Origin: Stratiformator vulcanicus
GTDB taxonomy: Bacteria; Planctomycetota; Planctomycetia; Planctomycetales; Planctomycetaceae
Reading direction: 5' to 3'
Length of the DNA: 64,000 nucleotides
Assembly (NCBI RefSeq): GCF_007744515.1
Contig: NZ_CP036268.1
Span: 3,518,712-3,582,711, forward strand
The number at the start of each line of letters is the position of its first letter. Position 1 is the first letter of the stretch. The position numbers were made by a program, and so were the translations under genes. This document shows positions 32,413 through 38,557 of the stretch, piece by piece. The notes under the pieces are model-generated. The model searched no databases, was not told the DNA's origin, and was given only the letters and a program-made list of their open reading frames with translations.

Positions 32413-34551
32413 TCAGAGCCCGTGCTGCGCTGATTGCATTTGTCGAATCTGAGCCAGGATCGCTCGAACCGTCCGCGTAACAGCTTCCCCGTCGTTGCCT
32501 CGGTGCTCCAGAACAATGGTGACGGCCAATTGCGGCTCTTTTGCCGGCAGAAATCCCGCAAACCAGGCGTGGGGTGCTTTGCTTCTTCCGACCTGCGCGA
32601 AGCCGATGCGTCCCGCGAAGTCTGGGTTCTCTTCGATCGTCTGGGCCGACAGTTCGAAGCCCTTCTGTAGAGCGCTGATTGTTCCCGCATCGAGATCGAG
32701 CTGGCGATCCGAATTGATTGATCGAATCTGCATATCACGTCGATCCCCGACCCGCGACGCACCGTAACCGGCGATCAGCCGCGGGCGGACAATCCGACCG
32801 CCGTTGGCGATTGCAGCCGTCATTTGAGCGACTTGCAGCGGAGTTGCGGTCAGCGTTGACTGGCCGATCGCGAATTCGAGCAGGCGGTCTTCATCGAGTC
32901 CGCCGCCGTTGAAACGCGGAAGTCGCCCCTTGGCCTCACCGGGGAGTGCAATGCCGGTCGCGCGGCCGAACCCGAACTTGTCGGCCCAATGGAGGAGGGC
33001 ATCGGACCCGGCGGTCCGGCCCGCGTGATAGAAGTAAACCTGACAGCGACTCGCTAAGGCATCCGGCAAGGTCAGCGGGCCGTGCCCGATCCCGACGTTG
33101 AGGTACACTTCGCACCGATGCCGACTCGGATTGTCGAGAAATCCGACGCATTCGAACGGCTCCAACGCCTTTATTCCGCCCGATTCGACCGCGGCAACGC
33201 CGGTCACCGGTTTGAACAAGTCCCCCGGCGGCAGCGCCGCGGCAACGGCCCGGTGAAACAGACGACGTGACGGATCCTCATTCGCCGCCGTCCAAAATTC
33301 GGGGTGGCGATCGGAAGCCGCATTGAGGTCGAAGGTAGGGGCGGAGGCGAGCACGAGCACTTCGCCCGAAGCGACGTCCGAAACAACGACGGCCCCACCC
33401 GAGTCGGGACCGACCGCCGCCTTCAAAATTTCTTCGATTTGCCGCTGCAATCTCGCATTAAGCGTCAGCACCAAATCTTGCCCGATCTGCGGTCGTCGCA
33501 GCACCTCGGTTCGCGTGATCGAACCATCCGATTCGAACCAAACCCGCCGCTGTCCCTCGGTCCCGCGCAAGTGAAGGTCGAAGGTCCGTTCGATTCCCGC
33601 TTTCCCTTGGGCCGCACCTTCTTGATCTTCAAGTGCATAGCCGATGACATGCGCCGCGGTCGCCCCGAGTGGGTAGGACCGCTTGGAGTGGGGTGCGATT
33701 TGGACACCGGGGAACCTCTCGGGGGCCGACTCAATCGCCGCCGCCGCGGTCAGCGACACGGAATCGATCACGACGTGCGGCACGGTCTGCTCAACGATCA
33801 CGAGCGGGTCGTTGCGGTATCGCTTCGGTGCGGTCGTCAATTCGTCCCGAACGACTTCCCACCACGCACGCATTCGAACCTCCTGCTCCTCTTGTTGTTC
33901 CTCTCGCCTGGCAAGGACGGCTTCATAAACCCGGCGGACTTCCTCAGTGATCTCTCGCCGTCGTTGAGCGAGGGTCGCCTCGGGCACGCCGGTCAATTCG
34001 GCGAGCCGCGTCCACAATGCATTGCGACGCTCGAGCGCTTCGCGACGCGCCTCGGCGAAGGAGAGATGCGGCGATGACGTTGCCGAATTTCGGCGGCTGC
34101 GTAAGAGTGATCGCGCCTGCCGATCGAGCCATTGCTCGTCGGGGGGTTCCTCAATCGAGCGAAAATGCACGCGGACTTCGAACTGCTGTTGATCCTCCGC
34201 CAACACGAGTCCGTCGCGAGAGAGAATTCGACCATCCCGCGCCGGGATCGGTTCGGTCCGGCTGCGGAGCGGGCTCAATGAAAACTCTTCGCGGGCCGCG
34301 ACCGCCTGTTGCACCCACGCCAAACGAAACAGGCCCGCCGCAAGCGGCAAAATGAGCAGCAGACTCATCCAACGCAACCGCCGATCCGGCGCGGCGGCGC
34401 AGCCGTCATCGGCTCCCAGGCGATGCTGCCTGTGATCGGCGACGTACGGGTTCGTCGGTGCATTCCGCATTCTGATTCGACTGATTTCGCGAAAGTCGTA
34501 TCGCCTTGGCGATCGCTGGGGACGCCCCGATCTAATGCCCGCGATTGGCAA
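32413..34551 (-). CDS. penicillin-binding protein 2 homologue lacking catalytic motifs
   Basis: A 712-residue class B PBP-like protein: an N-terminal helix around 61-80, a dimerisation region with a long coiled-coil-like insertion (about 135-245), then a transpeptidase domain from about 370. The serine of SxxK is replaced (PPGDLFKPVTG, D444 to K447). The SxD/N site reads RCQ at 502-504 in an otherwise typical VYFYHAG context, and KTG reads RIG at 648-650 within AGRIGFAQ. So the fold looks kept and the active site lost. It ends the mreBCD operon; its start overlaps mreD by 20 bp. It is likely a scaffold in wall elongation, by inference. Beta-lactam binding is not expected. Confidence 0.88.
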   Translation of the reverse strand: MPIAGIRSGRPQRSPRRYDFREISRIRMRNAPTNPYVADHRQHRLGADDGCAAAPDRRLRWMSLLLILPLAAGLFRLAWVQQAVAAREEFSLSPLRSRTEPIPARDGRILSRDGLVLAEDQQQFEVRVHFRSIEEPPDEQWLDRQARSLLRSRRNSATSSPHLSFAEARREALERRNALWTRLAELTGVPEATLAQRRREITEEVRRVYEAVLARREEQQEEQEVRMRAWWEVVRDELTTAPKRYRNDPLVIVEQTVPHVVIDSVSLTAAAAIESAPERFPGVQIAPHSKRSYPLGATAAHVIGYALEDQEGAAQGKAGIERTFDLHLRGTEGQRRVWFESDGSITRTEVLRRPQIGQDLVLTLNARLQRQIEEILKAAVGPDSGGAVVVSDVASGEVLVLASAPTFDLNAASDRHPEFWTAANEDPSRRLFHRAVAAALPPGDLFKPVTGVAAVESGGIKALEPFECVGFLDNPSRHRCEVYLNVGIGHGPLTLPDALASRCQVYFYHAGRTAGSDALLHWADKFGFGRATGIALPGEAKGRLPRFNGGGLDEDRLLEFAIGQSTLTATPLQVAQMTAAIANGGRIVRPRLIAGYGASRVGDRRDMQIRSINSDRQLDLDAGTISALQKGFELSAQTIEENPDFAGRIGFAQVGRSKAPHAWFAGFLPAKEPQLAVTIVLEHRGNDGEAVTRTVRAILAQIRQMQSAQHGL

Positions 34552-35089
34552 CCGGCGAATTCCAATTGAGTAACCATCGCCCGATCAAAATTAACAATAA
34601 CGCCGCGGCAACCCATGCGGTCGCGGTCAAACCGCTGCCGATCAAACGGAGCTGCGATTCGGCAGCGGGCATCCGCCCCGCGGAGATCTCGGCAAGGATC
34701 GATCCGCCGCAGCCGATCCACACAAGGGCAATCGATGTTCGTATCAGAGACAGGACTGAGGCCATTACTCCCGACGCTTCTCGGCGCGTCCCGAATTCCT
34801 GAAACAACCAACCAATTGAAACCGCTGCCACAACGGTGGCACCGACGGGTCGTCCGGCAATCGCATCACAGAGCAGTCCGCCGAATGCCAAGCTGACGAG
34901 CGGCCAGCTCCCGCGAACCGGTCGCGCCGCCGTGAGGGCGAGTGCCGCGGTCAGCCATACCATTTCGATCACCGCAGCGCTGCCGTCGCCGATTGGATCG
35001 ACGAGTCTCAGCGGGCCGCCACTGAGCGTGATCGACGCGACGACCAGCAATACCGCCATGACGAGAAGCTCTCGGATGAATGCGATCAT
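34532..35089 (-). CDS. mreD: MreD-like membrane protein
   Basis: A 185-residue hydrophobic protein with about five to six helices and no further motif. The identification rests on position between mreC and pbp2, size and topology, since MreD is poorly conserved. The opening FIRELLVMAVLLVVASITL and the SLAFGGLLCDAIAGRPVG segment (Asp-Ala loop) fit MreD. Start and mreC stop overlap by 4 bases (ATGA), so translation is coupled. Confidence 0.75.
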   Translation of the reverse strand: MIAFIRELLVMAVLLVVASITLSGGPLRLVDPIGDGSAAVIEMVWLTAALALTAARPVRGSWPLVSLAFGGLLCDAIAGRPVGATVVAAVSIGWLFQEFGTRREASGVMASVLSLIRTSIALVWIGCGGSILAEISAGRMPAAESQLRLIGSGLTATAWVAAALLLILIGRWLLNWNSPVANRGH

Positions 35090-36030
35090 GGCCGACCCTC
35101 ATTAGAAGCGGCCGCGGTCCGAAGGCTCAAGACCTGCACGTGTCGAGAATTGGAAAAGGTGAGTGCCGGTTGTAGTTCGATGTCCCAGTGCGGCGCCCCC
35201 GCCGCGACCTCGGCGTTGCCGACGGTTCCATAAACACAGGTCCCCGGCAACGCATCGCTCGCCGAGGAGAGTACGAGATCGCCGGCGCGTATGGCGATAT
35301 CCGAAGGCACGAATTTGATTCGAGCCGGCCCCCGTGTGGAGCCTTCGAGCACCCCGTCCGTCAGAATCGACATCGCATCGCCGCTGGGGCGTGCGATCGT
35401 GACCGAGGCTCGAAACTCGGGAGCACCAACTGTGGTGACCCGTGCCGTGCGCCCGCTACTGGAATCGACGCGTCCGAGAATGACTCGGCCGTCCATCACG
35501 AGGGCGTCATCAAGGCCGGCTTCAGTCGAGGTCGAAGCAACTGACTCCGGTAGTGAGATAACGACGCCCGACAGCGGTTCGCCGGCCTTCGATGACAGGA
35601 GCGGCGGGATCGCGGAATCGGCTCGGCCGCGGGCGAGCACTTCGCAATCCAGCAATGAATAGGCCTCGCTCAGTCCGCGGCGGATCGGCCCCGGCAAGGC
35701 GAGCTGAACTCGGAGACGTTCGTTCTCAGCCTGAAGCGCGGCCATCCGCACTCGGAGCGCGGCCGACGTGTTCTCAAAACTTTGCGACGGTACTTCTGCG
35801 ATCGAAGGTTCGGACTCGGCGCCGGCCTCGGTCGCAACCGAACGCACGATCGCGGAGGTTTCAACGGTCAGTTCAAGCATCGCTTCGGAGATCGCCACAC
35901 GAGTCGAGTCGGGCACGATCAGAAGACCGCAGCCGCCAAGTAGCAGTGTGAAAGCGGTGAGGCGACTCCAGCGTCGGTCCGCATCGGCCGATCGCCCCGC
36001 GCCGCTCACCATGTCGTACCTTCGCGTCAT
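35086..36030 (-). CDS. mreC: rod-shape determining protein MreC
   Basis: A 314-residue protein: short cytoplasmic N-terminus, one helix (about 25-42), a coiled coil at about 75-115 (ALRVRMAALQAENERLRVQL), then the MreC double beta-barrel with DGRVILGRVDSSSGRTARV and GDLVLSSASDALPGTCVYG. Its role is to link MreB inside to wall enzymes outside. It is coupled to mreD downstream and 74 bp after mreB. An ATG at 36012 is an alternative start. Confidence 0.9.
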   Translation of the reverse strand: MTRRYDMVSGAGRSADADRRWSRLTAFTLLLGGCGLLIVPDSTRVAISEAMLELTVETSAIVRSVATEAGAESEPSIAEVPSQSFENTSAALRVRMAALQAENERLRVQLALPGPIRRGLSEAYSLLDCEVLARGRADSAIPPLLSSKAGEPLSGVVISLPESVASTSTEAGLDDALVMDGRVILGRVDSSSGRTARVTTVGAPEFRASVTIARPSGDAMSILTDGVLEGSTRGPARIKFVPSDIAIRAGDLVLSSASDALPGTCVYGTVGNAEVAAGAPHWDIELQPALTFSNSRHVQVLSLRTAAASNEGRP

Positions 36031-36104: not shown

Positions 36105-37145
36105 TTACGCGGCCGACTCGAAATAGGGTCGCCACTGACGGAAGTGATCAACGCACAGAGCCGTGCCCCGAATGACGACCCGCGCCGGATCATCCACAAG
36201 TCGAACCGGCACGCCCAGTTGACGTTCGAAGTACTCCGGCAATCGCCGCAGTTGAGCTCCGCCTCCCGACAGCACGAGACCGACATCAGCCAGATCGGCT
36301 GCCAATTCCGGATCGCACGATTCGACGGTCGCCCGTAGCTCTTCGGTCATGATCTGAAGGACCGGAGCGATGGCTTCGCGCACATCCTCACTGGTAATAA
36401 CAGCTTTTCGTGGAACGGCGCCGGCCGTGTCAATTCCGCTGACCTCGACCACGAGTTCTTCATCGAGCGGATCAGCGCTGCCGATTTCATGTTTGATGCG
36501 TTCGGCGGTCCGGCTGCCGACCTTCAATGAGTATTCTCGCCGCAGGTATGCGGCAATCGCCTCGTCGAACGCTTCGCCCGCGACGCGGCGGGCACGCCGT
36601 ACGACGATATCGCCGAGTGACAGCACCGCGATATCGGTCGTTCCGGCGCCGATTTGGCAAATCCAATTCGCGATCGGCTCAGAAATGGGGAGCCCGGCAC
36701 CAACGGCCGCCGCGCGCGATTGTTCGATCAGAAAGACATCTCCGGCGCCCGCGCGTTCTGCGGCATTTGTGACAGCGCGCCGTTCAACCGGGCTGATCGC
36801 ACCGGGAACGGTCATCAACACGCGCGGCTTCAGGCCAAGTTTCGATCGACCCGTCTTCCGCAGAAAGCTGCCCAGCATCGCCTCGCAGAGGTCGAAGTCG
36901 TGAACAACACTGCCCCGGATCGGGTAGGCCGCCGTAATTCCGTCCGGCGTGCGGCCGATCATCTGCTTGGCAACGCGTCCGACAGCGGCGCCGCCACCGA
37001 GGATCCGTCGCGACTCGGAGTCGACCGCGACGACCGAAGGTTCATCGAGAATGAGGCCCCGACCACCGACGGCAACGCGCGTTTGATGCGTACCGAGATC
37101 GATCGCCAAGTCAGGGCAGAGTTGATGGCGCACTTGCGCGAACAT
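36105..37145 (-). CDS. mreB: divergent MreB-family actin homologue
   Basis: A 346-residue actin-like protein. Motifs kept are AIDLGTHQTRVAV (phosphate 1), EPSVVAVDS, RTAERIKHEIGSA and VLSGGGAQLRRLPEYFERQLGVPV (adenosine). Two ATP-site positions differ from standard MreB: phosphate 2 reads QIGAGTTD, with Gln164 where Asp is expected, and the EPxAAAIG motif reads EQSRAAAVG (Glu141 kept). It could bind nucleotide but hydrolyse it poorly. The ATG at 37145 is preferred to 37178. It heads the mre operon, with repeat copy B upstream. Confidence 0.92.
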   Translation of the reverse strand: MFAQVRHQLCPDLAIDLGTHQTRVAVGGRGLILDEPSVVAVDSESRRILGGGAAVGRVAKQMIGRTPDGITAAYPIRGSVVHDFDLCEAMLGSFLRKTGRSKLGLKPRVLMTVPGAISPVERRAVTNAAERAGAGDVFLIEQSRAAAVGAGLPISEPIANWICQIGAGTTDIAVLSLGDIVVRRARRVAGEAFDEAIAAYLRREYSLKVGSRTAERIKHEIGSADPLDEELVVEVSGIDTAGAVPRKAVITSEDVREAIAPVLQIMTEELRATVESCDPELAADLADVGLVLSGGGAQLRRLPEYFERQLGVPVRLVDDPARVVIRGTALCVDHFRQWRPYFESAA

Positions 37146-37392
37146 GGCCGACGGCAATCCTTTCCGCCGGAGCACCACGTTGATCGGACCGACAGGTTCG
37201 GACCGACCCGGGCATTAACCCTCTAGGCCGGCGGGCGTTCCCGAACTGACGCGACGTTGCCAACGGCCGGCGCAGGCAATGCCGACGGAGTGCTCCTTGC
37301 GATTGCCGATCGTAGGAGGTGGCTCGACGCGCGACAAGAGCGGTTCAGATCGCTCGCGGCGACGCGCGTTCAAACGCACACGGCACGAGTTA

Positions 37393-37563: not shown

Positions 37564-37713
37564 TTACGGGGCGACCTGCCACTGATATTCGTTCAAGTGC
37601 AGGCACAGAAACACGATTCCCGCGATCAACGCACCACACGCGACGAACAGCAGTCCGTCGTAAATACCCGGAGAAGGGGGCGGTCCGGCAGACTTAGAGT
37701 TTCGTCGTGACAT
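37564..37713 (-). CDS. 49-residue single-helix membrane protein
   Basis: A small protein I translated directly: a basic, Ser/Pro-rich start MSRRNSKSAGPPPSPG, then IYDGLLFVACGALIAGIVFL as one membrane helix, and a short tail HLNEYQWQVAP. The start ATG at 37713 overlaps the end of the upstream coiled-coil gene by 20 bp in another frame, which argues for coupled translation and for a real gene. I know of no named family. It is the last gene of a three-gene operon. The positive N-terminus suggests that it faces the cytoplasm. Confidence 0.75.
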   Translation of the reverse strand: MSRRNSKSAGPPPSPGIYDGLLFVACGALIAGIVFLCLHLNEYQWQVAP

Positions 37714-38557
37714 TGTCCCCTCGCTCAATCGTGACGTTCTTCGGTTTCAAAATGACTTTACCCACGGCTCGATCGGCTCCGACATCGGTCAGCACCACTT
37801 TGCCGAGATATTTGCCGCCATCGCTGGCGCGGTAGATGTACATCGTATGCCCCCGCTTGAGGCCGTCGTCGCTGCCCAGCGAGACGTCAACAAACTCGGA
37901 GCCGGCCGTCCGTTCGGGGCGAGCGATGTTGAGCACTTTGCCCTCGACGATCGGCGGCGGCGACGAATCGATGCCGTCGTGGTCGGCCGGATCGGTCGAG
38001 ATACCGAGCGATCGCAAAATGTTTGTCAGGGTGGCGGTCTGTTCGAGCGAATCGGTGTATCGGTCCGTCAGGATGTCGACCTTCCGCTCCAGCGCGAACA
38101 CGTCGTCTTTGAGTTTGAGACGCTCCGCGTTCAACTGGTTCTTCGCATCGATCAGGCCGTCATTGATTTCACGCAACGTTACGGCTTCGCGCCGGGCGGC
38201 TTCGGCCTGCTCCTCGGCGATGGTGGCGAGCTTCGATTTGACGGCGGCCGTTGTTTTTTCGGCATCGAGCATCTGCTGCACCGTGTCGAGCCGGGTCTTC
38301 AAATCGTCCCGGTCGCCGGTCAATTCGGCGAGCTTGCCTTCGGCATCGATCGCTCGTTTTTCGGCCGCACGAATCTGCTGATCGAAATCACCCTGGTTCT
38401 GGGTCATCTCCGTGTTGAGAGAATCGACCTGAGTCTGCAGAGTCTCGGCGTCTTTACGCCAGTTCAGTTCAGCTGTGTAGACCGCACCCGCGAAAGCCAT
38501 GAAGCACACGCTCAGGACGAGCTGCACGACGATCAGAATTTTGCCGACAAACGTCAT
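37694..38557 (-). CDS. membrane-anchored coiled-coil protein
   Basis: A 287-residue protein: one N-terminal helix (GKILIVVQLVLSVCFMAFAG), a long coiled coil from about 30 to 185 with heptad-rich KLAELTGDRDDLKTRLDTV stretches, and a C-terminal globular beta-rich domain with VDVSLGSDDGLKRGHTMYIY and GKVVLTDVGADRAVGKV. The end resembles an MreC-like barrel, but I cannot confirm it. Its N-terminus shares the pattern MT-x-GKIL with the upstream gene product, so the two are probably paralogous. The function may be an envelope spacer or scaffold (inference). Confidence 0.82.
   Translation of the reverse strand: MTFVGKILIVVQLVLSVCFMAFAGAVYTAELNWRKDAETLQTQVDSLNTEMTQNQGDFDQQIRAAEKRAIDAEGKLAELTGDRDDLKTRLDTVQQMLDAEKTTAAVKSKLATIAEEQAEAARREAVTLREINDGLIDAKNQLNAERLKLKDDVFALERKVDILTDRYTDSLEQTATLTNILRSLGISTDPADHDGIDSSPPPIVEGKVLNIARPERTAGSEFVDVSLGSDDGLKRGHTMYIYRASDGGKYLGKVVLTDVGADRAVGKVILKPKNVTIERGDNVTTKL

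Follow-up and report, generated by a model that had tools for sequence, protein, structure and literature searches.

What can an elongation penicillin-binding protein contribute to the building of a cell wall once its catalytic residues have been replaced? The question is raised by a PBP2 homologue of the planctomycete Stratiformator vulcanicus, encoded on the minus strand of the 64,000-nucleotide stretch of DNA analysed here (the window). Its open reading frame at 32413-34551 runs for 712 amino acids from a TTG codon at 34551, the start used by the first-pass annotation, and its translation contains no internal stop. Residue 28 of this frame (ATG, 34468-34470) aligns with the first methionine of seven homologues (L012, L013, L014, L019, L021, L025 and L027), making it the likelier start; from there the PBP2 gene would begin 61 bases past the end of the mreD reading frame, with no overlap (Table 1).

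Both a PBP_dimer (pedestal) and a Transpeptidase domain were recognised by Pfam above cut-off (80.8 and 136.5 bits, respectively), and the best NCBIfam model was pbp2_mrdA, at 310 bits below its cut-off of 455. By sequence, the best solved relatives were MrdA. An AlphaFold2 model built from a six-row alignment had a mean pLDDT of 65.7 and reached 70-90 in many blocks of the Transpeptidase domain, and its first PDB matches in Foldseek were 6pl5_B, which we take to belong to a RodA-PBP2 complex, and then PBP2 6xv5; these matches speak for a PBP2 fold of the modelled protein and are uninformative on the state of the cleft. The protein shares its domain order with Escherichia coli PBP2/MrdA, and its gene likewise lies beside mreBC, but unlike MrdA it lacks SxxK, SxN and KTG and falls short of the pbp2_mrdA cut-off. 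A single-protein scan of genome contigs returned five distant PBPs and was uninformative, and none of 451 records from a plasmid search reached 80% query coverage. We consider it likely that the gene is an orthologous elongation PBP2 that has been turned into a pseudoenzyme.

Table 1 Features of the PBP2 locus of S. vulcanicus, in window coordinates.
Feature	Position	Strand	Basis
Probable PBP2 pseudoenzyme gene	32413..34470	-	Open frame from the likelier ATG start; homologue Met alignment; Pfam domains
PBP_dimer (pedestal) domain, residues 102-348	33508..34248	-	Pfam; ordinary constraint
Transpeptidase domain, residues 386-699	32455..33396	-	Pfam; apparently relaxed
DLFK replacing SxxK (D444 GAC, L TTG, F TTC, K447 AAA)	33211..33222	-	Codons, alignment
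RCQ replacing SCN (R502 CGC, C TGT, Q504 CAG)	33040..33048	-	Codons, alignment
RIG replacing KTG (R648 CGC, I ATC, G650 GGC)	32602..32610	-	Codons, alignment
Absent conserved G and T in the loop ahead of KTG (approximate place)	32632..32646	-	Alignment
mreD by position	34532..35089	-	ORF; no Pfam/NCBIfam family at the thresholds used
mreC	35086..36030	-	PF04085, 50.7 bits, cut-off 28
mreB	36105..37178	-	PF06723, E 4e-107

Reading the codons on the minus strand confirmed the central observation of the first-pass annotation, that all three transpeptidase motifs are replaced: DLFK (444-447), RCQ (502-504) and RIG (648-650) align opposite SxxK, SCD and KTG of the solved MrdA chain. The nucleophilic serine, the serine and asparagine of SxN, and the lysine and threonine of KTG are replaced, and none of the motifs by which a functional D,D-transpeptidase is recognised (SxxK, SxN/SxD and KTG/KSG) is present. 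In the alignment Lys447 is kept, as are GHG and IGQ stretches. Placement of the gene at the end of mreB-mreC-mreD, also proposed earlier, was supported by Pfam for mreB and mreC, mreD being assigned by position only. Upstream of mreB the window holds a coiled-coil-like open reading frame (37694-38557, minus strand), and a similarly beginning frame precedes mreB in the relative G020 (L286:6031-6897; by eye). By eye, G020 (L286) also shares with the window the order mreB, mreC/mreD-like frames, PBP2 and an mnmA-looking frame, and its PBP2 (L010), an orthologue of that of S. vulcanicus, differs from it in having whole motifs (SVFK/SCN/KTG). In genus g27, a frame of >1000 amino acids stands directly ahead of PBP2 in the place of mreD (L281:5354-8560, L285:2924-6172); that of L281 matched no Pfam family.

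To place these substitutions among relatives, 149 PBP2 rows were compared, comprising the S. vulcanicus protein and 148 fetched loci (147 from the same family and L031 from another family of the class). Motifs were intact in 137 rows and degenerate in five, S. vulcanicus included; the remaining seven were cut off or frameshifted. The substitutions are therefore not conserved across the clade, a question that the first-pass annotation had raised, and the exact replacements are private to the S. vulcanicus genome. The S. vulcanicus protein itself found a match, which may be PBP2 or FtsI-type, in 166 of the 170 family genomes at E 1e-20. Outside the family, 21 of 22 genomes of the class (G037-G058 except G041) gave no match to it at E 0.001; by contrast, the FtsI-type protein was matched in most members of the family.

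The other degenerate PBP2s carry RLMT/GCR/IAA in L103 of genome G073 and SLFQ/SCH/RGG in L021 of G026, while in both L075 (G179) and L078 (G183) the lysine of SxxK has become threonine and the serine, SCN and KTG stand, so that these two may be less certainly wholly dead than the others. Two further candidates, L109 and L151, were rejected as degenerate PBP2s, their frames being frameshifted or cut. On a tree of 63 rows from which the motif columns had been removed, L021 was sister to the intact L059 (support 100), L075 and L078 formed a pair (100) beside the intact L016 (98), and L103 fell within an 11-row group (100) containing its intact congeners; the S. vulcanicus protein joined no other degenerate row, its own position being unsupported. 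A parsimony count on a separate 75-row tree likewise gave four changes. These topologies point to four separate losses, in S. vulcanicus, in G073, in G026 and, for the lysine only, in the ancestor of G179 and G183. The first-pass annotation had held that private, scattered substitutions would count against its reading; private they are, but the comparable separate losses in three other lineages argue against mere accident.

Constraint was compared by domain against intact orthologues, with L109, L151, the cut-off L058, L084, L101, L142 and L155, L031 from outside the family and some other short rows excluded from the reference sets, leaving 131 rows for conserved columns and, after exclusion of two more partial rows, 129 for identity z. 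Across 103 conserved columns, each kept in at least 93% of the 131 orthologues, the S. vulcanicus protein was changed at 1/33 in the N-terminal/pedestal region; its three motif windows had changes at 1/4, 2/6 and 8/13, and the remaining Transpeptidase domain at 9/47, a figure that would, taken alone, fit slow decay of that domain. Changes at the conserved N-terminal/pedestal columns were similarly few in the other degenerate rows (1/33 in L021 and L103; 2/33 in L075 and L078). Identity z, based on mean identity to the 129 orthologues, fell in S. vulcanicus from -0.4 in the pedestal to -4.0 in the Transpeptidase domain minus motif windows and -6.4 in the windows themselves; in the same order, values were 0.1, -3.1 and -5.2 for L021, -0.9, -4.8 and -8.6 for L103, -1.5, -3.0 and -3.0 for L075, and -1.4, -3.4 and -2.4 for L078. 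When the 61 branches of a fixed tree were ranked by the ratio of transpeptidase to pedestal length (median 0.92, 95th percentile 1.44), L103 came first, S. vulcanicus second, the stem of L075 and L078 third and L021 tenth. In the degenerate lineages change is thus greater in the Transpeptidase domain than in the pedestal, which stays at ordinary constraint in S. vulcanicus, L021 and L103; by branch-length ratio the pattern is weakest for G026.

Because S. vulcanicus was the only genome of its genus compared, dN/dS was confined to the G179/G183 pair. Their PBP2s gave 0.084 at a dS of 0.89 (0.066 in the N-terminal/pedestal region and 0.108 in the transpeptidase); between these two genomes FtsW gave 0.110 and RodA 0.034. 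Purifying selection is thus acting on the altered proteins, at least in this pair. In the S. vulcanicus genome, RodA was more divergent than any other of 11 compared and FtsW more than any other of 13, and some general acceleration is therefore possible.

Which enzymes, then, could polymerise and cross-link glycan in this organism? Its genome (one contig, 5.23 Mb, 98.74% complete) encodes two SEDS proteins, best matched as RodA and FtsW respectively and both below the NCBIfam cut-off. The aspartate of the TDF motif is catalytic in SEDS proteins, and both the RodA-type and the FtsW-type protein retain the motif, aspartate included. Of its two PF00905 proteins, one is the PBP2 and the other, L001, has intact motifs (STVK, SSN and KTG); we term it FtsI-type because its best NCBIfam model was spoVD_pbp and not pbp2_mrdA, all scores being under the cut-offs. 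A genome search found no second intact PBP2, and a search of S. vulcanicus and 17 relatives for a class A glycosyltransferase domain found none (0/18 genomes). A Planctomyces species likewise figures among the bacteria without class A PBPs in a survey (PMC8406291). The single YkuD protein (L166:935-2362:+) has LysM and YkuD domains above cut-off but reads GPGTIR, with threonine in place of the catalytic cysteine of SxGC. From the lipid II pathway, one MurG-like protein was recognised among the proteins examined. The FtsI-type protein thus appears to be the only intact transpeptidase found among class B and class A PBPs and YkuD proteins, and its three motifs were whole in all five PBP2-degenerate genomes. 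The earlier proposal that another enzyme does the cross-linking is accordingly narrowed to this one candidate, no second PBP2 or class A PBP having been found and the YkuD protein lacking its cysteine.

The complement of class B PBPs varies within the family. A single PF00905 match was found in 22 of 170 genomes, many of them incomplete. In six genomes from three genera (G003, G009, G100, G101, G190 and G191; 94-99% complete) the lone PF00905 protein is an intact PBP2 (e.g. L013, L012), and these seem to be without an FtsI-type protein; G003 and G009 also have one SEDS protein, not two. G189 (91% complete) gave neither a PF00905 match nor a match to the S. vulcanicus protein, so the presence of one or more intact class B PBPs cannot be taken as a strict rule; it does have a YkuD protein. 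G130 (66% complete) had no PF00905 match yet was matched by the S. vulcanicus protein.

Among 86 L,D-transpeptidase loci, a non-random sample into which low scorers were deliberately included, 77 had the cysteine, eight lacked it (in G000, G179, G183, G069, G070, G071, G121 and G147) and one was a fragment. The cysteine was missing in 3/5 PBP2-degenerate genomes vs 5/77 of the rest (Fisher p 0.0057, or 0.027 after collapsing sister pairs), in a table of 82 genomes that excludes three without a PBP2 row and the one fragment, and that scores G005, G015, G093 and G182 as PBP2-intact though their PBP2 rows are cut or frameshifted. Exceptions run both ways: cysteine is replaced despite an intact PBP2 in L173 of G069 (S), L231 of G147 (Y), L232 of G121 (G), L233 of G070 (S) and L235 of G071 (S), and is retained despite a degenerate PBP2 in G073 and G026. 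Ranked by YkuD-domain divergence among 75 genomes, those with cut or frameshifted PBP2 rows being excluded, the five PBP2-degenerate genomes stood at 1, 2, 3, 4 and 8 (Mann-Whitney p 4e-7, or 6e-6 when G183 was omitted, with no correction for kinship in either case). A tree-paired test of PBP2 loss against cysteine loss offered four pairs, two of them concordant, and cannot reach 0.05; the association therefore rests on the Fisher and Mann-Whitney tests. In PBP2-intact genomes, Transpeptidase-domain and L,D-transpeptidase divergence were uncorrelated (rho 0.09, p 0.44). The L,D-transpeptidases of G179 and G183, in both of which cysteine has become serine, had a dN/dS of 0.165 over the whole protein, and of 0.117 for the YkuD domain by itself. 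It seems that the L,D-transpeptidase has been released from the same selection as PBP2. A search of a collection of open-access papers found nothing on planctomycete L,D-transpeptidases.

PBP2 appears to have been retained in S. vulcanicus with its active site destroyed and its RodA-contacting part well preserved, and the recurrent losses in relatives suggest that it is maintained for a role as switch or scaffold and not for catalysis. In E. coli, MreC opens the pedestal of PBP2, and pedestal changes activate RodA in living cells as well as in vitro, where RodA and PBP2 were fused (PMC6207328, PMC10257715). By analogy, pedestal constraint combined with transpeptidase drift, in a PBP2 whose gene neighbours mreB and mreC and whose genome has an intact-looking RodA-type protein, fits a retained activator or scaffold. 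The protein would still be part of the MreBCD-RodA complex, its pedestal would pass MreC binding on to RodA and so turn on glycan polymerisation, and it would form no cross-links and be expected to bind no beta-lactam covalently; any cross-links made would be the work of the FtsI-type protein. We regard it as probable that PBP2 has become a pseudoenzyme whose task is to activate or scaffold RodA, the FtsI-type protein being the one transpeptidase found intact. The first-pass annotation had already suggested a scaffold-only PBP, and the idea stands as an inference, in keeping with the constrained pedestal, the relaxed transpeptidase domain and the intact TDF aspartate of the RodA-type protein; it is strengthened by the recurrence, by the confinement of constraint to the pedestal and by the parallel decay of the L,D-transpeptidase.

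Other explanations account for part of these data. PBP2 may have become superfluous and its gene be on the way to being lost, the first stop codon yet to arise: relaxation does extend through the Transpeptidase domain beyond the motifs, and in Planctopirus limnophila mreB, ftsI and ftsW can be deleted with growth rate unharmed (PMC6952346). Yet 712 codons without a stop, the ordinary pedestal constraint in S. vulcanicus, L021 and L103, and the dN/dS of 0.084 in the G179/G183 pair all make such a gene in transit unlikely. It is less likely still, to the point of being quite improbable, that the aspartate and the retained lysine perform some other chemistry or bind substrate without acylation. 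The retention of Lys447, GHG and IGQ would suit such a site, but the replacements differ from lineage to lineage and so look like loss and not like a common new site. Error in sequencing or assembly, a worry where a single genome of the genus was compared, would have to have altered several codons at three places and removed a loop while leaving a clean frame in a one-contig genome, and to have recurred in separate cases elsewhere, including the same lysine to threonine change in two species; we give it almost no weight.

The retained activator or scaffold could also be one part of a wider change, in which several lineages of the family are dismantling the cross-linking half of elongation and keeping the polymerising half, so that RodA would be switched on by a dead PBP2 and the glycan left hardly cross-linked, or not at all, except at sites of the FtsI-type protein. 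This extension would follow from PBP2 and the sole YkuD L,D-transpeptidase having both lost catalysis; we hold it tentatively, as somewhat short of an even chance, its probability slightly lowered by G189 and by the divergent RodA and FtsW of S. vulcanicus.

Whether activation by class B PBPs can be separated from transpeptidation is usually probed with engineered mutants, and laboratory catalytic-site mutants have a structural role without transpeptidation. The PBP2 described here would resemble them in that respect; it differs in being natural and in having apparently arisen independently in several lineages. Among the titles listed by searches of a collection of open-access papers, none concerned a natural PBP2 without catalysis, which is no proof of absence. 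Evolution seems to have split activation from transpeptidation more than once, and natural polymerisation-only RodA-PBP2 pairs would be expected. Such bacteria would be predicted to make few cross-links during elongation and to have a PBP2 that is no covalent target of beta-lactams, which may also bear on the dispensability of wall and division genes in Planctopirus limnophila (PMC6952346).
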